Positions 53,981 through 64,000 of a stretch of 64,000 nt of DNA are shown here, one piece after another. The notes under the pieces were generated by a model, which did no database searches, had not been told where the DNA came from, and was given only the letters and a program-made list of their open reading frames with translations. A program made the position numbers and the translations under genes. Position 1 is the first letter of the stretch. Each line of letters opens with the position of its first letter. The DNA is from an uncultured Pelagibacteraceae bacterium. GTDB taxonomy: Bacteria; Pseudomonadota; Alphaproteobacteria; Pelagibacterales; Pelagibacteraceae. Where the stretch lies: assembly GCA_902587755.1 (NCBI GenBank), contig CACIMN010000002.1, positions 186,001-250,000 on the forward strand, read 5' to 3'.

Positions 53981-54118
53981 TTACCAGGCTGTTAATTTCC
54001 AGCACTCACTTACGTCCTCAATACGAACATAACAACCTAGAAAAGACATAATTTTAAAAGCACAGAAACCTCCAACCAAAATAATTATCATCAACACAAA
54101 AGGATTAATTTTTTTCAT
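53981..54118 (-). CDS. 45-residue single-pass membrane peptide, unknown
   Basis: A short open frame reading MKKINPFVLMIIIILVGG-like: basic N-terminus, one hydrophobic helix (about residues 7-28), then CYVRIEDVSECWKLTAW with three Cys in the whole peptide near and after the helix. It starts three bases after the nadK stop and ends 22 bases before the methyltransferase ATG, exactly filling the gap between them, which supports a real gene. No family recognised. Confidence 0.6.
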   Translation of the reverse strand: MKKINPFVLMIIILVGGFCAFKIMSFLGCYVRIEDVSECWKLTAW

Positions 54119-54121
54119 TCA

Positions 54122-54892
54122 CTAACTAGTCTCTCTTCTAATTTGTTCAATTTTAATCTTTTTTTGTAGACTTCTATTTTTGTCATAAAGAAGGTTAAAC
54201 TTTATTTTATTATTAGTTTTAATTACGATTGATTTAGCGTTTCTTACTTCTAAATTATCTGCTACTGCACTAATAGGTCTCTTAGATGGGTTTAAGTTGG
54301 TTATGACTATTTTTGATTTATCATTTACAATTTTACCCTTCCATCTTCTGGGTCTAAATGCACTTATTGGAGATATTGATAGTTTTTTTGAATGAAGACT
54401 TAAAATAGGTCCATGAACTGAAAGATTATAAGCTGTACTTCCTGCTGGAGTTGATACAAGCACACCATCTGAAACTAATTTTTTAATTATTTGTCTTGAA
54501 CCTTGTTTAATTGATAATGAAGCTGCTTGTCTGCTTTGTCTCAGTACAGAAACTTCATTTATTGCTATTGATCTTTTAATTAGATTATTTTTATTCTTAA
54601 CAATCATTTCTAAAGAAGAAATTGAAACCAAATTTGCTTTTGATAAATTTTTAATAATATCTTTTGAGGAAAATTTATTCATAAGAAAACCATAATTCCC
54701 TGAATTAATTCCATAAAAATGTTTTATAGAGTTTTTATTCTTTTTAAGTGTTTGAAGCATAAAACCATCTCCACCAATCACTATAATAAGATTCTCTTTT
54801 TTAAAATTACTAGACTTAATTTTTTTTAATAATAAATTTTTAATCTTTGACGATTTTTTATTTTTATCTGAAATAATTTGAAGTTTACTCAT
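54122..54892 (-). CDS. nadK: NAD kinase
   Basis: 256 residues. IVIGGDGFMLQTLKK (about 37-51) is the GGDG nucleotide motif, YGINSGNYGFLMN (about 59-71) the second motif, and DGVLVSTPAGSTAYNLSVHG (about 138-157) the catalytic/NAD motif. It phosphorylates NAD to NADP and is normally essential. Its ATG lies four bases from the tRNA-Leu 3' fragment (54897-54952), so the ancestral state was probably a tRNA-Leu/nadK transcript; the insertions have removed its original upstream region. Confidence 0.95.
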   Translation of the reverse strand: MSKLQIISDKNKKSSKIKNLLLKKIKSSNFKKENLIIVIGGDGFMLQTLKKNKNSIKHFYGINSGNYGFLMNKFSSKDIIKNLSKANLVSISSLEMIVKNKNNLIKRSIAINEVSVLRQSRQAASLSIKQGSRQIIKKLVSDGVLVSTPAGSTAYNLSVHGPILSLHSKKLSISPISAFRPRRWKGKIVNDKSKIVITNLNPSKRPISAVADNLEVRNAKSIVIKTNNKIKFNLLYDKNRSLQKKIKIEQIRRETS

Positions 54893-54896
54893 TTAA

Positions 54897-54952
54897 TGGT
54901 GCCCTCGGCCAGACTCGAACTGGCACTCCGCAAGCGGCAAGGATTTTAAGTC
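54897..54952 (-). repeat. Displaced 3' half of tRNA-Leu(UAA), att-like repeat 1
   Basis: 56 bases identical to 56144-56199: the CCA end, T arm, variable arm and anticodon stem-loop of tRNA-Leu. Immediately after TTTTAAGTC the sequence turns foreign (TACTCCCG...). No 5' half follows, so it cannot make a tRNA. It marks the left boundary of the island beside nadK. Confidence 0.93.
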
Positions 54953-55013
54953 TACTCCCGTTGTCATTCGCCAAGTCAATTCAAGCTTTTTAATTTTTTT
55001 CATTTTTTTTCAG

Positions 55014-55053
55014 TGCACATTAATGCACATTTTTGTGCATTAGTGCACATTGT
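55014..55053. repeat. Helically phased TGCACATT array
   Basis: TGCACATT at 55014, 55024 and 55044, with a 6/8 match (TGTGCATT) at 55034, gives four copies with a strict 10-bp period. The block is also partly palindromic. Located about 60 bases inside att repeat 1, it resembles recombinase arm-binding or operator sites. Confidence 0.7.
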
Positions 55054-55080
55054 TTTAGTTGGTAGTTGTAGGTAGACCAT

Positions 55081-55105
55081 AAGTCCTTCACGTCTACCAA
55101 GTTCA
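55081..55105 (-). repeat. Degenerate tRNA-Leu 5'-half relic
   Basis: 21 of 25 bases match the D-arm/anticodon-side part of tRNA-Leu at 56195-56219 (AAGTCCTT, GTCTACCAA and TTCA shared). Probably the decayed right end of an older insertion; it could alternatively come from a divergent leucine tRNA carried by an element. Confidence 0.5.
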
Positions 55106-55121
55106 TAAATCATATAAATTC

Positions 55122-56126
55122 CTATAAACTCACTTTATATTGTAATGGTGTGAGATTAAAATTTTCCTCAACACTACCTTTTTTCATATACATCTTACCT
55201 ATCATTTTTTCAGGTAAAAATTCGTAAACTCTGTAGATATAAAAATTTTTTTTGTTTTCTTTAGAAAAATTTAATTCACCAGGGCTAATATAAAAATCTG
55301 TACCAATTGGACCCTTTGTTGTCTTAACCTCAATAAATCTCTCTGTACCATCTTCATTGTAAGATAAAATATCATAACCAGCAGAGTCATTTGATAATGA
55401 AACATGTTTTATTTTATCTATTAATTCTTCTTTATTCATCTTTTGTAATCTTTCTTTTTCATAATCCATTATATACAGCTCACCTTTATCACCTATGTCT
55501 TTAAGTTTTTTATCTGACTCGGGATTGTTAAAAACCTTCAATTGTTTAAACTTATCTCTTTTAACCCCTTCTCTTTTCTTCTTTGTCTTTTTTTCAGGAG
55601 CATCACTAACTATAAATTTCTCTTGCTGGACTTGCTTTTCAATGTTCAGACCAGTTTCTAATTTAATATCGAGTTCATTCAGTAAGGCTTCATCAATTGG
55701 CCAATTCATTAACTGCCAATTAAAGTTTACTGGCTCATTATCTTTTCCACTGTCCTCATCGTGATTTAAGTATTTAAGTGTCCCTAAATAGTAGTAATCT
55801 TGATTTGTATTAGCTCTATAAAATAAAAAAATATTATTACTTACTTCATCATGATTTATTAAATCTATAATCTTTTGTGTTTTTAAAGTATTCTTTGGTT
55901 GTGATTGCCATCTGAAAACACCATCTTCAGTAAAACCTTCATCAAACTCATGTTCACCTACAACAGTTCCTGCTGTAACCATGAAAACAAAATCATTTGA
56001 ATTTTCTACTCTAACTAATCCTTGTAGACCCCAAGTACCAGCAGACTTTATAAATTTTGTGTTAGGTGAAAGAGTGCCATGAATTTCTTCACGACTATAT
56101 GAACTGTAGAGCTCAAGCTTTTTCAT
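55122..56126 (-). CDS. DUF3427/DUF3883-like protein, candidate PD-(D/E)xK nuclease
   Basis: 334 residues. The first part (about 1-140: LYSSYSREEIHGTLSP, VFRWQSQPKN, YYYLGTLKYL) resembles the DUF3427 domain seen at the C-terminus of some helicase-like defence proteins. A charged linker follows. The last 100 residues resemble DUF3883: GDKGELYIMDYEKERL, then AGYDILSY and RFIEVKTTKG, which supply the Asp and Glu-x-Lys of a PD-(D/E)xK active site. I start at ATG 56126; the longer frame to 56180 runs into tRNA-Leu. The start is 17 bases from the tRNA 3' end, so read-through from the tRNA promoter is likely. Anti-phage or restriction function is inference. Confidence 0.7.
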   Translation of the reverse strand: MKKLELYSSYSREEIHGTLSPNTKFIKSAGTWGLQGLVRVENSNDFVFMVTAGTVVGEHEFDEGFTEDGVFRWQSQPKNTLKTQKIIDLINHDEVSNNIFLFYRANTNQDYYYLGTLKYLNHDEDSGKDNEPVNFNWQLMNWPIDEALLNELDIKLETGLNIEKQVQQEKFIVSDAPEKKTKKKREGVKRDKFKQLKVFNNPESDKKLKDIGDKGELYIMDYEKERLQKMNKEELIDKIKHVSLSNDSAGYDILSYNEDGTERFIEVKTTKGPIGTDFYISPGELNFSKENKKNFYIYRVYEFLPEKMIGKMYMKKGSVEENFNLTPLQYKVSL

Positions 56127-56143
56127 GTTAGTAGATTTGTGTG

Positions 56144-56229
56144 TGGTGCCCTCGGCCAGACTCGAACTGGCACTCCGCAAGCGGCAAGGATTTTAAGTCC
56201 TTTGTGTCTACCAATTTCACCACGAGGGC
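56144..56229 (-). tRNA. tRNA-Leu (anticodon UAA), intact copy
   Basis: 86 nt with an encoded CCA and a long variable arm. Acceptor stem GCCCUCG/CGAGGGC pairs perfectly; anticodon loop CUUAAAA gives UAA. It is the only intact copy among several fragments in the next 7 kb. Its 5' flank (56234 onward) differs from the flank shared by the displaced 5' halves, implying the working gene now uses an element-supplied promoter region; TTGATT and TAAGTA 17 bases apart on the minus strand (about 56270-56242) are candidates. Confidence 0.98.
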
Positions 56230-56293
56230 ATTATTTGAACTGTGTTTACTTACTTTTTTTATCATTAAAAATCAAATTTTTTATTTATCATTA

Positions 56294-56314
56294 CTACACT
56301 AGAACTACACTAGT
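56294..56314. repeat. Left paired repeat of mini-island B
   Basis: Two copies of CTACACTAG separated by AA (11-bp period), about 95 bases from the anticodon core. The same 21-base unit, with one C-to-T difference, recurs at the right end of the island in direct orientation. Confidence 0.8.
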
Positions 56315-56333
56315 CAAATAATCCTCTTTTTCA

Positions 56334-57554
56334 TTAAGTTGGTGAAAATATTTGCTCCATCACATAAAATAATATTTCTTGAACACCTAAATTTACAGCG
56401 TATCTAATAAATATATCCTTTTCATTAATATTCAATTGCTCTTCGGTATAAGGAGTTTGATAAGATAGACTTAGAGTATAAAATCTAAATTGTTCATAAC
56501 TAAGTATCGTTCCGTTGCCTGAACCAATTAAATTTGGACTAATATTTTTTTTATGATCACGTTTGATTTCTGATATGACTTTTTTAAATCTTTTATCTTT
56601 AGATCCTTCAGTATATTTTGTCTTTTCATAATGAATTGCTGAAAAAAAGTCCCCTGTACCATCATATTCATACTGTTCAGAATATTCATTTTTTAGGTCA
56701 TAAACATAATAGTTTTCACCTTTTAGAAATAAAAAATGAGAAAGTTTGCTTTTGTATATACTGTTTTCAATTGTATCTAATAAGTTATGACTTCTAATGC
56801 TGTCAATTTTATAAAATTTCTCATAAAAATCTGAAATAAGTTTTTTTATATATCTGTTATTATAAATTACTTTAGTAAAGTGATTAATCTTATACTTAAT
56901 TATTGAGTCTGAAAATGGATCTTTTGGTTTTGCTTTTTTTTCTTCAAATGGACCGAGATCACATATAATTTTTACTGATGCTAAAAGATAACCGTATATA
57001 AAAGCATCAGAAAAAAGTTTTTCCCATTTCTTTCCTGTTATTATTTTTTCTTGATCTGAGGGTCCTTTAAAAAATGGAATTTTTGTTTTATTACAATAAC
57101 TATAATAATAATAGTTTTTTGGATTATGATTGTTGCTATAAAATGTTTGTTTACCAGGAAGAGCGTACTCTTGACCATATTTTGTCTGTTGTTTAAACGG
57201 AAATGTTCTATCATCTTCAGATTTTTGAGGTGTTTTATCAACCGATAATTTTAATAAATTGTATATATTTTCCTTAAATTTTTTACTTTGACCTTCGGTC
57301 TCAAACGATCCTTTTTTAAAATCTTTAAAAAATTTTTCATAAAAATGTTCTGTAATTTTTAATTTATTTCCACCCCAAGCATTATTACCTGCTGTGAAAT
57401 AATTTAACTCTATCTCTCTAGCAAATGATTTTGTTACAGATTTCCACACGTCAAACTTTGCTTCAGAAATTTTAGGAGTAGTTTTTTTAATTTCTTTTTT
57501 TATTAATTCTCTTATTTTTTTATTTTTTTCCTTAATATCTTTTTCTAAAATCAT
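56334..57554 (-). CDS. Unrecognised 406-residue protein, cargo of mini-island B
   Basis: Lys/Tyr/Phe-rich, no signal peptide and no clear membrane helix except a mildly hydrophobic FIYGYLLASVKIICDLG (about residues 186-202). Basic N-terminal 30 residues look helical. A Tyr run (NYYYYSYC, near 146-153) and ENYYVYDLKNEYSEQYEYDG (near 283-302) are unusual. I recognise no catalytic motif or family. It occupies nearly all the island between the two paired repeats, which argues for a role useful to the element or host, such as defence, but that is only context. Confidence 0.6.
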   Translation of the reverse strand: MILEKDIKEKNKKIRELIKKEIKKTTPKISEAKFDVWKSVTKSFAREIELNYFTAGNNAWGGNKLKITEHFYEKFFKDFKKGSFETEGQSKKFKENIYNLLKLSVDKTPQKSEDDRTFPFKQQTKYGQEYALPGKQTFYSNNHNPKNYYYYSYCNKTKIPFFKGPSDQEKIITGKKWEKLFSDAFIYGYLLASVKIICDLGPFEEKKAKPKDPFSDSIIKYKINHFTKVIYNNRYIKKLISDFYEKFYKIDSIRSHNLLDTIENSIYKSKLSHFLFLKGENYYVYDLKNEYSEQYEYDGTGDFFSAIHYEKTKYTEGSKDKRFKKVISEIKRDHKKNISPNLIGSGNGTILSYEQFRFYTLSLSYQTPYTEEQLNINEKDIFIRYAVNLGVQEILFYVMEQIFSPT

Positions 57555-57585
57555 ATTAGTGTACCTAATTTATATCGTTCTACCT

Positions 57586-57595
57586 CTAGTGTAGT
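57586..57595. repeat. Inverted arm-type copy in mini-island B
   Basis: CTAGTGTAGT is the reverse complement of ACTACACTAG, the unit repeated at 56294-56314 and 57619-57639. It lies 31 bases upstream of the cargo start and 23 bases inside the right paired repeat, so it may double as an operator. Confidence 0.65.
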
Positions 57596-57618
57596 AAAAC
57601 ATTTCGTCATTCTACCAA

Positions 57619-57639
57619 CTACATTAGAACTACACTAGT
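57619..57639. repeat. Right paired repeat of mini-island B
   Basis: CTACATTAG-AA-CTACACTAG-T, direct repeat of 56294-56314 with one mismatch in 21, ending 54 bases before the core of att repeat 3. The bracketing by identical paired units supports an element with its own recombinase specificity. Confidence 0.8.
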
Positions 57640-57693
57640 TCAATTTTATCAAAAAATGTTGAGTTTATTAGTGAAACCTTAGATTTGAATACT

Positions 57694-57780
57694 TTTTAAG
57701 TCCTTTGTGTCTACCAATTTCACCACGAGGGCATTAATGAATTTCATTTGTGTTTAAGCTAATATTTATAATTGAACAAG
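57694..57780 (-). repeat. Displaced 5' half of tRNA-Leu plus flank, att-like repeat 3
   Basis: 87 bases identical to 63341-63427: TTTTAAGTC core, the tRNA-Leu 5' half (to 57732) and 48 bases of upstream flank. Similarity fades but continues for about 30 more bases. No 3' half precedes it; the sequence before the core is unrelated. Within 57555-57858 the only other contents are the paired repeats. Confidence 0.93.
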
Positions 57781-57815
57781 ATTAATAAGTAAAATTTTTT
57801 AATTTATCCCTCAAG

Positions 57816-57834
57816 GTACAAGTTTAGTACAAGT
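57816..57834. repeat. Left paired repeat of mini-island C
   Basis: GTACAAGT-TTA-GTACAAGT, two units with an 11-bp period, about 115 bases inside the core and 25 bases past the stop of the large coiled-coil gene. Recurs at the right end with one mismatch. Confidence 0.8.
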
Positions 57835-57858
57835 TCTCCTATAATATCCTTAAAAAAA

Positions 57859-60800
57859 TTAATCGCCTGGATTTACTGTGACTGTTAAACCACTAGCAGC
57901 CTCAGCTTCAGCAACTGCTTTTTTATGCTCACCACATGCTGCTTCTGCTTGGCCACCTGAATTATTACATCCCCACTCTGAATTAGCGGCTGCATCTGTC
58001 AAACCTGTGTAAACAACTTTTTGACTCCCAGTTACATTTACACCTGTTCTTCCAACTATTACTGCTATTGAACCATCAGAATTTTGAACTAATTGAACAA
58101 CATTCTTTTCTGCTCTTACACCTTCGACAATTTCATGCGCAGCAGCCTGAACAACTTGAGTAACTTCTTTTGCAGCTTCTGTAGCAGCTGATGAAGCGGC
58201 ACTAGCAGCTTCACTTGCAGCTGATGCAACCTCCGTTGTTGAAGATGCAGCTGCTTTAGCCGCATTTACAGCATCTACAACTTGTTGCTCAGCAGCAACT
58301 TGACCTCTCGCTTGTTCAAGCATTGCCTCAACATTTTGACCTGATGCTTTCGCAGCTTCTAATCTTGCAACAGAATCTTTCGCTTTTTGTAGTAGTGCTT
58401 CTGCACCACCCTCTTCCATAATATTAAACTTTCCACTAAAAAATTCTTTTGTAACTTCTCCTGTTGCTTCACCAATTGCACTGTCTAAGACTAAACCTTT
58501 AGTATTTACAGTAGCTGCAGCTAAAGCATCATCATAACCAAATGGCGACTCAACTCCATCGGCAATTTGTTTGTTAAAAGTTTCTAACTCCGATTTAGAA
58601 ATATTAAATGCACAATCTCCTCCTGAACACATTCCACCTTGATTAATGTCCCCTGTTCTTACAAAAACATATCCTGAAGCTGCAACCTTTTTTCCTAAAT
58701 CTCCACTAGGTCCACATTGATCACCACTACAAATAATTCCTCCATACAAAGCATTTCCTGTATGACTATCTATTACCTGTCTTCCAGTTTTTGGATCAAT
58801 AAGTGAATAGGTTCCCTCAGTCATTTCATCAGTAGCAACGAGACCTTTTGCTGTTTCAAGACCAAACATACCTGAATTAATTTTTTCAGCAGCTATTTCA
58901 GATAATTGTATGTTTAAATCACCTGTAGCATCAATTTTACCTACACTTAAAATTTGTTCTCTTGTTACTGCTCCAGCTAAATAGACTTGGTTACCTCTAG
59001 TAAATGTACCTACAGGAGCTTCAAAATCACCAACATCATCAGTTAAAGTATCAGTATCGACTATTCTCATTAAATCAGTTCCTTCAATTTGAACTATTGA
59101 TTTATTTTCTAGTTTTGCAACAGCTTCAACAATTTTTTCATTTACATTAATTCCTGATTTAATTGCTTGTGTCATTGCAAGATCAGCTTTGATTTCAATT
59201 GCATTGTTAAGCTCTTGGTTCAATTTAGATATTTGATTTGAAATATCTGGAGTTTCAGTTTCAAGAGTTGTTAATTCATTTGTAAGAGATGCTAATTGAG
59301 AATTAATTTCTGTTGATTGATCCTCATAAGCTTTCAATTGACTATCTAATTGAGCTATTTGACTTTCAAATTGGACTTTTAATGCATTAGCTTCATCAGT
59401 TGCTTTTCCCTGACTTTCGATTTGATTTGCAATAGTAGTTAATTGAGTATTAAGTTTAGAATCTAAGTCTGCTCTTTGACCTTCAAGTTCATTCATTTTA
59501 TCACTTAAAGGATTTAATTGTTCTTGAAGTGAAGCTAAGTTTTGAGTTTTTTCAGCAATTAAACTTTCTTTAGAGCTAAATTGATTTGATAAATCACTAA
59601 TCTGATTTTGAATTTCACTTTCTGAGGTTTTAAGTGAAGTTAATTCATTTTCTAATCTTGATATCTCTGTAGTTAAATTTTTACTTTGTTCTTTAGTTAA
59701 ATTTAATTCATTTGATAAACTTTCAGCTTTTGCGTTTAAAGCATCGATAAGAACATTACTTTCACCAAATACACCTTTTAATTCACCCTCAAGTTCTGCT
59801 CTGTTTGCTGTATCAAGAGCTAAAGGATCATTGTAATATGCGTTTATGTATTCAAAGTCATCTACAAAGCCATATTTTTTAGATCTAACAATAGCTGCTG
59901 TTTTAATATTTGAAGCTTCCCAATATGGTCCTGTCATATATTCACTAACAGGTTTTTCTCCAAGCTCACCTAATTCTTTTAAAGCCATTTCTACAGCATA
60001 AGATTCATCTAAATTTCCATTGCTAGCAATATCTACTAATTTTGCTCTTAGCTTAACTGGATCTAAATCTGCAACAAAATCAGCATCATCCTCAAAAGTT
60101 GGTATCTCTTTTAAAATACCACTGATTTTACTTTTATATTCGCTTAAATCTTTGGATTCCTCGGCAACAATTTGTTCATATTGTTTTTTAGCATCTTGAA
60201 CAGCGTTAATTAAATTATCCCTTGCTTGTCTTGTTGCATTATTTTTAATTGACGAAATTTCATTATGTAAATTATTTATCTTATTTATATTTTGAAAAGT
60301 AGGATCCTCAAAGGTTGCAAATCTTTCATAAAACATATTAATTCTTTGATCAACTAGGTTCTGCCTTTTGTTAACCCAGTTAGAATTTCCCCAATCAGGA
60401 TTGGAGTTAAGTTGACTTATTTGGCTTTCAATATCTTGAAATCTTGCTGTAGCATCTTGAATTTGTTTTTCATATTCAGCATATAATTGATCTCTATTTT
60501 TATCAAAATCATTTATTTCTCTCTGTAATTCAGCTATCTGATTTTGTTTTATTCCTATTTGCTCGTTGTCTATCAATTTTTCAACTTCTTTATTTATTGC
60601 CTCAAACTCTGGTGTTCCAGGTGTTCCTGATCCATAATTAAATAAATATGTTCTAAGATTTCTAATTTGATCTAAATCTTTTGTTTTTTCTTTTATGTTT
60701 TCATTAATTTGTTGTTTTACATTATTTAATTCTATTGAAGCATAAACAGCTTCTTGGATAGCTCTATCTTCTGCTACAATTACATTTATATCTCCATCTG

Positions 60801-62307
60801 TAATTTTATTAAAATACCAACCATCAGGTAATATTGCTTGTGGATTTTTTTCTAATGCTTTGTAGATTTGTTTTGTAATTGATTTTTGTTTATCCCAATC
60901 ATCATTTTCAATTGCAGTTAATCCTTCATTAATAAAATCTTGAGAAAAACCAACTAATTTTGAGTATTTTTCAAGTTCAAAAGCTCTATATTGTTTTGGA
61001 TCTGGATTTAAAATAGCTTGTACTTCTCTAACTGCATACTCGGCTTGAATATCATAGTTATCTGCATTTACGTTTCCTAATGCAGAATAGTAATATTGAA
61101 ACGCTTCAACTTCTTTGTCTAAAGCTCTATCAAAATCTCTTTGAGCAAAGTCTCTCTGCAAAGTAACAGTTTCTAATTTTTCATTTAATTCATTTAATTT
61201 TCCACCTAAATCAGTATTTTTTAATTGATCTAATTCTAATTCTTTTTTTGAAAATATACTTTGATTTACTGATAGTTGTTCATTTAAATTTTTAATATTA
61301 TTCTGCAATTGAGACTTAGATGCAATATCATTAGCCAATTCTAAATTTAAGCCTTGAACCTGTTCTTGAAGTGAATTTGATTGTTCTTCAGCTGTTTTTA
61401 TTTGATTTGTAAGATCACTTAATTGACTATTAAATTGATCTGCTAACTCTTTACTTTTGTTGATTTCCTCATCAGATAAAATTGTTGAAGATTGTTTTAA
61501 AATCTCCTCATTATATTTAGCTAAAAGATCAGTTTTTTGATTTTTTAGATCTGTGATTTGACCTGATAAAGGATCAATTTTTGTTTGTAGTTCATTTAAT
61601 GAATTTTTTTTATCTAGAATTTCTAAATTATTAGCCTGAAGTTTTTGTTCAAGTGTTGAGATATTTGTATTTATCTCGTCATCAGAAATTATTTGTTTAC
61701 CATCATCTGTAAGAATGTCACCTTTCCAAGAATTTGCCCATTCTTCTTTAGTCCAAGTTGACATTTCTTTTTTCTTTTCAACAGCGATAGCAACATCAAT
61801 GGTCTCAATACCAATCTGATCTAGTGTTTCAACTATTCCAAAAGCATCTAATCCTTCCTCACTGATATCAACCATACCTGAAATTAAATCATTTAATTTT
61901 TCTTCTTTTACTTCTTTCATCTCTGCAGTGATTTCATTCACAATTTTCATATTTTCTTCACCAAAGCTTCCCATATCTGCTTTTGACATATCTGATGAAA
62001 ATTCTTGGGGCACTAATGCGTTAGTACCAGCTAATGATTTTTCGATAAATTCTAAAGCTTTAATAGCACTCTCTTCATTACCGTCCTCTAAAGATTCTTT
62101 TACAAATTCAGTTACTTTATCTATTTGCTCAAAAGCTTTATCCATTTTAACTGCTTCAATAACTTCGCTTGTATCAACATCATTAAAATCTTTTTTAGCA
62201 GCATCAATTGAATCAACAATATCTCTTAATTCCTGATCAAGTGCTATTGATGGATTGGAAAAAAATAAAAATAATAATGTTAAAAAATATAAATTAATTT
62301 TTCTCAT
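57859..62307 (-). CDS. Very large exported coiled-coil protein, unknown (1482 residues)
   Basis: An N-terminal hydrophobic segment ending SIALDQ (about 1-24) is a signal peptide. Two long heptad-rich coiled coils follow (about 206-376 and 849-1036), separated by a mixed helical region. A Gly/Cys-bearing segment near 1185-1230 (ICSGDQCGPSG and MCSGGDCAF) and a C-terminal pair near 1448-1460 could form disulfides. An Ala-rich helix (about 1326-1400) precedes the end. No membrane anchor is obvious at the C-terminus. Composition is less Lys-rich and more Gln/Glu/Ala-rich than neighbours. It overlaps the preceding 287-residue gene by four bases (ATGA). A periplasmic or surface structural role is plausible; no family recognised. 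Confidence 0.75.
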   Translation of the reverse strand: MRKINLYFLTLLFLFFSNPSIALDQELRDIVDSIDAAKKDFNDVDTSEVIEAVKMDKAFEQIDKVTEFVKESLEDGNEESAIKALEFIEKSLAGTNALVPQEFSSDMSKADMGSFGEENMKIVNEITAEMKEVKEEKLNDLISGMVDISEEGLDAFGIVETLDQIGIETIDVAIAVEKKKEMSTWTKEEWANSWKGDILTDDGKQIISDDEINTNISTLEQKLQANNLEILDKKNSLNELQTKIDPLSGQITDLKNQKTDLLAKYNEEILKQSSTILSDEEINKSKELADQFNSQLSDLTNQIKTAEEQSNSLQEQVQGLNLELANDIASKSQLQNNIKNLNEQLSVNQSIFSKKELELDQLKNTDLGGKLNELNEKLETVTLQRDFAQRDFDRALDKEVEAFQYYYSALGNVNADNYDIQAEYAVREVQAILNPDPKQYRAFELEKYSKLVGFSQDFINEGLTAIENDDWDKQKSITKQIYKALEKNPQAILPDGWYFNKITDGDINVIVAEDRAIQEAVYASIELNNVKQQINENIKEKTKDLDQIRNLRTYLFNYGSGTPGTPEFEAINKEVEKLIDNEQIGIKQNQIAELQREINDFDKNRDQLYAEYEKQIQDATARFQDIESQISQLNSNPDWGNSNWVNKRQNLVDQRINMFYERFATFEDPTFQNINKINNLHNEISSIKNNATRQARDNLINAVQDAKKQYEQIVAEESKDLSEYKSKISGILKEIPTFEDDADFVADLDPVKLRAKLVDIASNGNLDESYAVEMALKELGELGEKPVSEYMTGPYWEASNIKTAAIVRSKKYGFVDDFEYINAYYNDPLALDTANRAELEGELKGVFGESNVLIDALNAKAESLSNELNLTKEQSKNLTTEISRLENELTSLKTSESEIQNQISDLSNQFSSKESLIAEKTQNLASLQEQLNPLSDKMNELEGQRADLDSKLNTQLTTIANQIESQGKATDEANALKVQFESQIAQLDSQLKAYEDQSTEINSQLASLTNELTTLETETPDISNQISKLNQELNNAIEIKADLAMTQAIKSGINVNEKIVEAVAKLENKSIVQIEGTDLMRIVDTDTLTDDVGDFEAPVGTFTRGNQVYLAGAVTREQILSVGKIDATGDLNIQLSEIAAEKINSGMFGLETAKGLVATDEMTEGTYSLIDPKTGRQVIDSHTGNALYGGIICSGDQCGPSGDLGKKVAASGYVFVRTGDINQGGMCSGGDCAFNISKSELETFNKQIADGVESPFGYDDALAAATVNTKGLVLDSAIGEATGEVTKEFFSGKFNIMEEGGAEALLQKAKDSVARLEAAKASGQNVEAMLEQARGQVAAEQQVVDAVNAAKAAASSTTEVASAASEAASAASSAATEAAKEVTQVVQAAAHEIVEGVRAEKNVVQLVQNSDGSIAVIVGRTGVNVTGSQKVVYTGLTDAAANSEWGCNNSGGQAEAACGEHKKAVAEAEAASGLTVTVNPGD

Positions 62308-63167
62308 GATTTATCTTTAGTTGATTTTTTTTCCTCAGCTCTTTCCTCTAGTTTTTTCTTTAAATTAGATATTGTTGCTTTATAAATATCAAGTTTATCT
62401 TGTCTGTCTTTAATATCTTTATTAACTGTAATATTGTTGTCAGTTGGAACACCCATTTCTAAAAATTCTCCTAACAGCCAAAATTTTTGAATAGCCTCTT
62501 TGACTGGTGTATCCATGTCCATACCAAGAGCCTTTCGCATATTTTTTCTTCCATCATTCATTCCAAATAAAGATCTAATTGCATCTTCGTCTCTTTTCTT
62601 TTTTGAAAATAATCCTTTCTTATAATCATCTTCTTTAAATCTTTTAATCGCTTTTCTAGTGTCGTATAATCTTGATGCATAGAACACTTCATACATAGCC
62701 ATTGATTTGATCATTTTTCCTGGATACTTTTGACCCCAAGATGGGCTTTTGCCAAAATTACCCCACATGTAGGATCCTGCTTTTTGACCAACACATTTCA
62801 TTCCTTTTCCACATCCTACAAATTTTTTTAACATTCCTTCTGTATAAAAAGATTTATCGAACTTAATTATTTCACCAAGTTCCTCTATTTTTTTTAAAGT
62901 AATTTCATCTTTATCTTTATCTTTTTTACCAAATAATTTTTTGTCATTGGTTTTTTTGCTTTTTATAGAAAATTTCTTTTTGGTATTACTTTTTTTCTCT
63001 TTTGTGGGATTTTCTAAAAATTCTATTGATTTTTCATATTCTACTTTTGAAATTCCACCAGCTTCATAGATTTTTTTTAATTCTTCTTTTTTTTGATCAA
63101 TAGTTTTTGCAACTGCACTAAAAGATATTAAGACTGACACAATTATACAAAAAACAAATTTTCGCAT
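62304..63167 (-). CDS. Exported protein with SHOCT-like segment, partner of the coiled-coil protein
   Basis: 287 residues. A signal peptide (about 1-20, ending SAVAK) is followed by KKEELKKIYEAGGISKVEYE (about 26-45), which resembles the short SHOCT oligomerisation motif. A Lys-rich linker (about 55-90), a central folded part with two Cys (VGCGKGMKCVG, about 116-126) and many Trp/Tyr/Met, and a charged C-terminal helix complete it. First gene of a two-gene operon: its TGA overlaps the ATG of the 1482-residue gene. The coupling and shared export signal suggest the two proteins work together outside the cytoplasm. Confidence 0.72.
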   Translation of the reverse strand: MRKFVFCIIVSVLISFSAVAKTIDQKKEELKKIYEAGGISKVEYEKSIEFLENPTKEKKSNTKKKFSIKSKKTNDKKLFGKKDKDKDEITLKKIEELGEIIKFDKSFYTEGMLKKFVGCGKGMKCVGQKAGSYMWGNFGKSPSWGQKYPGKMIKSMAMYEVFYASRLYDTRKAIKRFKEDDYKKGLFSKKKRDEDAIRSLFGMNDGRKNMRKALGMDMDTPVKEAIQKFWLLGEFLEMGVPTDNNITVNKDIKDRQDKLDIYKATISNLKKKLEERAEEKKSTKDKS

Positions 63168-63195
63168 AAGAAATAATATTATTTTATCTTTCTAA

Positions 63196-63214
63196 GTACA
63201 AGTTTAGTATAAGT
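63196..63214. repeat. Right paired repeat of mini-island C
   Basis: GTACAAGT-TTA-GTATAAGT, direct repeat of 57816-57834 with one mismatch in 19, located 127 bases before the att repeat 4 core and 28 bases upstream of the operon start. Confidence 0.8.
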
Positions 63215-63258
63215 CTGCACAAATTAATTAAGACTTATTTTCTAAACTTAATTGAAAG

Positions 63259-63273
63259 CCAATTTAAAATTGG
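63259..63273. repeat. Perfect palindrome near the right end of mini-island C
   Basis: CCAATTT-A-AAATTGG, a 7-bp perfect inverted repeat with a one-base centre, about 90 bases upstream of the 287-residue gene. It fits an operator-type site. The remaining 63168-63477 gap holds the repeats, a doubled GGACTACC motif near 63291-63312 and the tRNA-Leu fragment. Confidence 0.5.
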
Positions 63274-63340
63274 GAGATTTTAAAGGATGTTTAGACTACC
63301 TTGGACTACCACGGACTGACTCATTTGTGAATCCCTCGGC

Positions 63341-63427
63341 TTTTAAGTCCTTTGTGTCTACCAATTTCACCACGAGGGCATTAATGAATTTCATTTGTGT
63401 TTAAGCTAATATTTATAATTGAACAAG
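63341..63427 (-). repeat. Displaced 5' half of tRNA-Leu plus native flank, att-like repeat 4
   Basis: Same 87 bases as 57694-57780. It lies beside the chromosomal HAD gene, so it is probably the original 5' half and promoter side of tRNA-Leu. Joining 54897-54952 to 63350-63379 gives exactly the 86-nt tRNA-Leu. The preceding bases (ATCCCTCGGC) are unrelated to the tRNA 3' half. Confidence 0.93.
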
Positions 63428-63477: not shown

Positions 63478-64000
63478 ATGGAAAAAGCTTTCAAAGTTTT
63501 AATATTTACGGATCTTGATGGATCACTTCTTCATAGAGATACATTCAGATTTGATGAAATAAAAGATTATTTAAAAGAGATTATCTCTAAAGGAATTTTT
63601 ATAATACCTAACACTAGCAAAACGGATAAAGAGATTCTAGAATTTAATAACGAATTAGGAATAAAAATACCTTATATCTCTGAAAATGGAGCTTCAATTA
63701 ATGGCTTAGATTTGTTAAATAAAGATTTACCTCAACAATTAATACTTAGCAGAGAAAAGGAAACTCTTTTAAATATTTTTAAAAAAACAGTTTCATCAAA
63801 CCTACAAAATAAATGTAAATGGTTATCTGAAATGGATGAGGATAGACAGAGTTTAATTTTAGGTTTAAAATATCAAAAACTCAAAAGTGCTTTATATCGT
63901 AAATATACTGTTCCTTTTATATTTAACGGAAATAAAAATGAGAAAAAACAATTAGCAAAAATTTTAAAAAATAAAGGTCTTTTCTTACAAGAAGGTGGTA
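63478..64000 (+). CDS. HAD-IIB phosphatase, mannosyl/glucosyl-3-phosphoglycerate phosphatase-like (partial)
   Basis: The frame starts at ATG 63478 and is open at the right edge (174 codons seen). IFTDLDGSLLHRDTF (about 9-23) is HAD motif I with both catalytic Asp, and IIPNTSKTDKEI (about 42-53) contains motif II. ISENGASI (about 68-75) is typical of the MPGP/YedP branch of Cof-type HAD phosphatases, which finish synthesis of the compatible solutes mannosylglycerate or glucosylglycerate. A matching synthase is expected just downstream. Divergent from the ancestral tRNA-Leu position. Confidence 0.8.
   Translation, partial: MEKAFKVLIFTDLDGSLLHRDTFRFDEIKDYLKEIISKGIFIIPNTSKTDKEILEFNNELGIKIPYISENGASINGLDLLNKDLPQQLILSREKETLLNIFKKTVSSNLQNKCKWLSEMDEDRQSLILGLKYQKLKSALYRKYTVPFIFNGNKNEKKQLAKILKNKGLFLQEGG

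Follow-up and report, generated by a model that had tools for sequence, protein, structure and literature searches.

The window (the whole 64,000-nucleotide stretch of DNA that was analysed) comes from a SAR11/Pelagibacter genome which is 96% complete, and holds one intact tRNA-Leu(UAA) gene (56144-56229, minus strand), the sole tRNA-Leu(UAA) called by ARAGORN, together with three broken copies of it. A lone 3′ half, an exact 56-nt copy of that part of the intact gene, lies at 54897-54952 (minus strand) and forms the left edge of island A; a displaced 5′ half at 57694-57732 (minus strand) is both the right edge of island B and the left edge of island C; and the outermost displaced 5′ half, with its upstream flank (flank U), is found at 63341-63379 (minus strand). 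The conserved flanks of the locus are nadK (54122-54892, minus strand), which is on the tRNA 3′ side and adjoins tRNA-Leu in nearly all relatives, and a HAD phosphatase gene (63478-64000, plus strand), which begins 99 bp beyond the outermost half and continues past the window end.

All of the breaks are at TTTTAAGTC, which covers the anticodon loop and the first part of the anticodon stem; after position 54001, the plus strand has this sequence at 54944, 56191, 57694 and 63341 only. Chance is very far from explaining exact repeats of 39-56 nt, and the 5′ halves at 57694 and 63341 are 96% identical to each other over 106 nt, upstream flank included. ARAGORN and the repeat comparison thus bear out the original prediction, made from this DNA alone, of one intact tRNA-Leu with three exact copies broken at the anticodon, and the predicted 86-nt tRNA gene is indeed rebuilt from the outermost halves (54897-54952 plus 63341-63379). 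A group I intron between the halves was rejected, as Rfam gave no intron match there, just tRNAs and one chance match.

Three segments lie between the halves: A (one gene), B (one gene) and C (two genes), with every cargo gene on the minus strand, as had been claimed. Island A encodes a 331-aa protein with DUF3427 and NOV_C (55122-56117), which is close to the PADLOC candidates PDC-S36 / PD-T4-1 and so resembles candidate defence proteins. The island B protein (406 aa, 56334-57554) belongs to no recognised family, and its predicted structure was an unusable model (pLDDT 34). Island C encodes a 1482-aa coiled-coil protein with a hydrophobic N-terminus (57859-62307), which is probably exported, and a 287-aa protein, also with a hydrophobic N-terminus and of no family (62304-63167); family matches for the B and C proteins gave nothing beyond the coiled coil.

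There is no integrase inside A, B or C and no resolvase in the window's genome, and serine recombinases are absent across 121 genomes. The single tyrosine recombinase of this genome lies ~35 kb outside the window and is a 325-aa protein of the Xer-like type, found as one copy in nearly every relative. The predicted absence of an integrase therefore stands.

A tRNA-Leu hotspot across the genus

Among 151 genomes of the genus, retrieval via nadK gave the locus for 107; 104 of these loci have an intact tRNA-Leu, usually directly next to nadK. Behind the tRNA, 56 of the 104 have no displaced 5′ half, 36 have one and 12 have two, these counts being lower bounds because many contigs end early; among the 63 loci with at least 10 kb beyond the tRNA, 34 carry at least one. 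Three loci (L035, L048 and L049) are empty, with HAD starting exactly 99 bp after the tRNA, and the outermost half of the window stands at just this distance from HAD. In a pattern search, 279 of 399 genomes had the 5′ half, in up to four copies (the reversed control gave zero matches), and the displaced halves are exact in 46 of 60 cases.

Stacks are also present in the closed genomes G384 and G298. Assemblers can be confused by exact repeats, but an assembly or amplification artefact has next to no probability, as the same structure recurs in constant orientation in dozens of independent single-cell genomes as well as in closed ones. The tRNA-Leu locus is a genus-wide hotspot and no artefact. 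The original prediction had named two outcomes that would speak against it, the same full arrangement in every relative and an assembly artefact; the comparison of related SAR11 genomes which it proposed gave instead empty sites, single elements and other stacks, with closed and single-cell genomes in agreement, and so neither outcome holds.

Two further features of the flanks were noted. Beyond HAD in L035, L036, L048 and L049, the HAD gene and a 406-aa neighbour are bounded on the outer side by a further 5′ half, partly decayed, which gives the pair the look of an older, fixed insertion; there is no such outer half beyond HAD in the window's genome (L321). On the nadK side, the tRNA is separated from nadK by 0.2-5 kb of extra sequence in sixteen loci (L050, L054, L058, L063, L137, L145, L151, L155, L157, L165, L166, L168, L169, L176, L188 and L189). 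Insertion of an A-type element was rejected as the cause of this gap, since no 3′ half remains in these loci, except for a decayed one in L151.

Cargo genes and their spread

We defined 57 intervals between successive 5′ halves, excluding those that contain HAD. Their median length is 2.7 kb, 97% of their ORF length is on the strand pointing towards the tRNA, and a single interval (L126) contains an integrase. Cargo families were surveyed with 120 proteins of at least 140 aa, taking the best 25 of ~100 or more families per library; the recognisable cargo includes restriction-modification systems of several types, pilin-like proteins (14), caspase and trypsin-like proteases, an autotransporter and others, with neither an integrase nor a phage structural protein among these best 25. 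Runs of pilin-like genes with the N-terminal methylation motif occur as cargo in L054 (2548-8234, oriented), L034, L038 and others, and possibly provide variation in phage receptors or in uptake.

Homologues of the 287-aa island C protein are found behind the same tRNA in G022, G054, G076 and G111. Others lie across nadK, on its other side (G054:C1:230336-231139 and G073:C8:31360-32103), which suggests that this is a second variable spot.

An island encoding an 831-aa protein is first in one stack and second in another (L131 and L156), and the two copies are 96.8% identical in DNA, although the nadK genes of the same hosts are 72% identical. The island A gene has 94% nucleotide identity to a gene of L171, in a match that barely exceeds the reading frame, and the L171 copy sits in a satellite-type frame with TACGAG repeats; L148 and L177 likewise have common cargo in different frames. 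By these sequence comparisons, cargo genes move between frames and the mini-islands spread horizontally. Passage between cells may take place via virions, vesicles or natural DNA uptake.

Element ends and their probable helpers

The left and right ends of one element carry a common motif, which varies between elements; usually TTTATCTCTCT comes first and a tandem pair, for example GTACTGGTnnnGTACTGGTT, after it. Of the 57 elements, 49 have a tandem repeat in their left end (versus 4% of shuffles), and in 38 of these 49 the repeat pair is 84-85 nt from the 5′ half. As an independent set, we took another 43 elements with a single end type out of GTDB genomes, which in part overlap those of the first set; in 34 of 37 cases, the left 7-mer recurs at the right end of the very same element, compared with 12% for other elements and 4% for differing motifs, and none of 10,000 permutations gave own-end pairing as high (p < 1e-4). 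From their position and pairing, we infer that these repeats are putative arm-type sites, which would be bound by an integrase.

Both islands with a 5′ half at their edge have such pairs. In island C, the left repeats (57803-57835, plus strand) read TTTATCCCTC...GTACAAGTTTAGTACAAGTT and the right ones (63183-63214, plus strand) TTTATCTTTC...GTACAAGTTTAGTATAAGT, so that GTACAAGTTTAGTACAAGTT at 57816 is nearly repeated at 63196. Island B carries ACTACACTAGAACTACACTAG on the left (56293-56313, plus strand) and, as its near copy, ACTACATTAGAACTACACTAG on the right (57618-57638, plus strand). The ends of some other elements are decayed (L056, L066 and L133). Among 84,980 species genomes, 86 stretches show the commonest end type, and all of them are SAR11; this type and the exact arm and end patterns of the mini-islands gave zero contigs in IMG/VR, a collection filtered for viral genes and lacking the typical ends, and neither an excised circle nor an attP was observed for any mini-island.

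These pairs also bear on whether modules are exchanged by homologous recombination between the repeated halves and conserved flanks, and not by site-specific integration. Repeats of 39-106 nt are on hand for this, homologous recombination is frequent in SAR11 (PMC7542561), and the presence of the A gene in two frames with gene-exact limits is unexplained by an integrase alone. However, homologous recombination alone can neither make the first insertion into an empty site nor explain element-specific arm repeats paired at both ends, and we regard it as very improbable. Sequential site-specific insertion, on the present sequence evidence, is as good as shown.

Candidate helpers were found by scanning IMG/VR for the tRNA 5′ half, which gave 23 contigs. 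Three of them are circular satellites (L102, 7.7 kb; L117, 7.85 kb; L121, 8.9 kb) whose genes include those for a primase and a tyrosine recombinase of 545-549 aa, with no structural protein recognised among the proteins scanned. Integrated counterparts exist: L126, in the tRNA-Leu island of G120, encodes a primase and a 551-aa relative of the satellite recombinase, G168 (L202) holds an integrated satellite of the same kind, and in G202 a satellite adjoins the tRNA with three further intervals behind it. (For INT551 in IMG/VR, a single-sequence search gave 0 matches and an alignment-based search 7 loci.) The satellite integrase is present in just 6 of 399 genomes, broken in two of the six (G158 and G159), and cassettes therefore far outnumber resident helpers.

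Island C and most of its relatives have the same end anatomy as the circular 7.7-8.9 kb satellites that use the same tRNA half, and the right attachment arm of C (63303-63340, plus strand; ...GGACTGACTCATTTGTGAATCCCTCGGC) has the same form as in the INT551 satellites. Over the 60 bp before the core, mini-islands and INT551 satellites are up to 80% identical; each satellite has 15-20 mini-islands at 60% or more over these right 60 bp, a level which none of 18 further viral contigs reaches, whether they have another integrase or none that was identified. Satellite L126 and mini-island L129 both carry TGTGCTGGTCTTGTGCTGGTT and GGACTGACTCGTCTGTGAATCCCTCGGC (arm repeat and core flank), and satellite G168 (L202) and mini-island L044 have right ends in common over >40 nt. 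A satellite with the ACAAGT arms of C was not found; matches were chance ones lacking the tRNA half.

At least two more viral integrase groups (282-297 aa) have the same tRNA-Leu 5′ half as attP, with other arms (L103, L106, L108, L112, L114, L116, L119 and L122). Such podophage-type integrases and the 515-aa relatives were rejected as helpers, for they use the tRNA 5′ half but their ends are unlike those of the mini-islands.

The match to satellites could also mean that mini-islands are decayed relics, like CIMEs, which have lost their integrase and are now fixed, moving at most with a neighbour by accretion. The decayed ends in L056, L066 and L133 and the broken integrases in G158 and G159 fit such decay, and stacking is typical of accretion (PMC5704250). 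Yet comparison against the satellite proteins revealed no remnant of them in any mini-island, most mini-islands bring the host-like flank U and not the satellite flank, so many displaced halves are exact and arm repeats so regularly paired, and a whole mini-island was recently transferred between distant hosts (L131/L156). That the mini-islands are relics is thus unlikely.

Island B has a third kind of frame. The flank upstream of the intact tRNA (flank V, 56230-56290, minus strand) differs from the flank U of both displaced halves and is common to the B-type elements L050, L128 and L233; we take it that V is brought in by island B. The B-type frame consists of flank V, ACTACACTAG repeats and a common right end, and these three elements share it; in L233 the cargo includes a B protein homologue (35%), and in L050 and L128 it is a different gene. 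No helper with ACTACACTAG arms was found for B, the matches being chance ones without the tRNA half.

Island A belongs to this stack, as the original prediction had it, but is not of the same kind as B and C, as its end is that of a tRNA-splitting pelagiphage. Its left end (54944-55051, plus strand) consists of the 3′ half, TTTTAAGTCTAC and TGCACA-type repeats at 55014-55051, the same form as attL of the G072 prophage L125 and attP of phages L229 and L230. Phages of this type split the tRNA (attL in L125, 351-1559; the attR form in L105) and carry an intact tRNA-Leu(UAA) of their own (L229:8235-8320 and L104:10130-10215); no replacement tRNA was seen for the G072 prophage itself, where the contig ends. 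A short core, a split tRNA and a phage-borne replacement tRNA are thus found among L125, L105, L229 and L104, and the SAR11 pelagiphages L229 and L104, which target tRNA-Leu(UAA) without restoring it, match the tRNA-dependent lysogeny described for actinobacteriophages (PMC10865867). It is the probable helper of island A that shows this likeness, and not the islands themselves. The right end of A carries a full 3′ half, which the pelagiphage type would not give directly; our guess is that A arrived as an element with a replacement tRNA, which later recombined with the resident 5′ half. Also in the left end of A, at 55071-55105, an inverted repeat (GGTAGAC/GTCTACC) is accompanied by a degenerate version of the tRNA 5′ half.

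Mode of mobilisation and known systems

We propose that each of A, B and C is a distinct small integrative element lacking an integrase, and that they entered in succession at the tRNA-Leu(UAA) anticodon loop. Strand exchange would likely occur in the 7-bp loop TTTTAAG, with the anticodon stem as the core inverted repeat. B and C would each bring a tRNA 5′ half and promoter region at one end; recombination would join this incoming 5′ half to the resident 3′ half, so that the tRNA is rebuilt, the old 5′ half is displaced outward and the newest element always adjoins the tRNA. The predicted order of entry (C, then B, then A) fits the anatomy, because a new element enters at the intact tRNA.

As both sets of arm-type sites are kept but the integrase is absent, the recombinase must act in trans, and as the ends copy the docking sites of satellites and phages, the elements probably borrow the integrases of these. 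We therefore consider it likely that they are cassettes mobilised in trans by satellite or phage integrases, a reading which is firmest for the C-type elements. We infer that helpers drive the movement: for C this would be the 545-551 aa tyrosine recombinase of satellites using the same tRNA half, for A the 349-aa integrase of the tRNA-splitting pelagiphages, and for B a putative recombinase with ACTACACTAG arm sites. Of the earlier suggestion of mobilisation in trans, like phage satellites, the first part gains support from the arm-type repeats matched to satellite and phage integrases, and the likeness to satellites holds for integration sites only. We see roughly even chances that SAR11 trade genes as integrase-less cassettes, which would make these elements either a third layer of parasites or an integron-like system founded on phage attachment sites: the arm repeats would direct a given satellite or phage integrase to its cassettes in the manner of address labels, cargo would hop between labels, and the tRNA-Leu anticodon loop would be a docking port common to phages, satellites and cassettes.

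SAR11 are among the most abundant marine bacterial groups, with very small genomes and varied defence and surface genes. Many minimal cassettes moved by phage or satellite integrases would be a route by which genes arrive in SAR11 without visible mobile machinery and, if this is true, new genes such as phage defences enter on borrowed integrases. It would then be expected that a satellite with GTACAAGT arms exists for C and a ACTACACTAG recombinase for B, and that the arm motif covaries with the integrase N-terminal domain. As natural collections of arm sites and the integrases that go with them, the elements would be useful for studying site choice by tyrosine recombinases.

Phage satellites of marine bacteria (VEIMEs, tycheposons; PMC11389934) are small and targeted to tRNA genes. 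So are the mini-islands, which lack the integrase and replication gene of their own that the probable helpers L102, L117, L121 and L126 have; these helpers, with integrase and primase, resemble VEIME or tycheposon satellites. Having neither, the mini-islands would depend on a satellite as a satellite depends on a phage.

We found no description of this element family in the open literature that was searched; the nearest ideas are CIMEs, CALIN arrays, the microcin H47 island and the Dehalococcoides islands. A tRNA genomic island, as defined in Islander, has a restored target, a displaced fragment at the other end and an integrase inside (PMC4383910); the first two are found here and the third in 1 of 57 intervals and in none of A, B and C. 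The genomic island for microcin H47 also has no integrase, and has been shown to excise and integrate with proteins of the host background; it differs in being a single island with long repeats and multiple crossover points (PMC3191183). The ssrA islands of Dehalococcoides carry cargo in tandem at a single RNA gene and have displaced fragments as their boundaries; they are like the mini-islands in both respects, but many have their own serine recombinase module (PMC3146451).

CIMEs, which are described as decayed remnants of ICEs or IMEs, and tRNA accretion stacks share with the mini-islands the absence of integration genes, the retention of att sites and tandem stacking; here too attL and attR are kept while integration and transfer genes are absent. 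The mini-islands differ from CIMEs in being a large family of one to few genes, with element-specific paired arm sites and without remnants of satellite proteins. Integron cassettes and CALIN arrays are similarly recombinase-less, with the newest cassette at a fixed entry point and the recombinase acting in trans. In place of attC sites and an integron integrase, however, we find phage-type att ends and a genome whose only tyrosine recombinase is Xer-like, and the mini-islands are set apart from integron cassettes by entry at a tRNA anticodon loop, by att sites with arm sites and by the tRNA half that they bring along.
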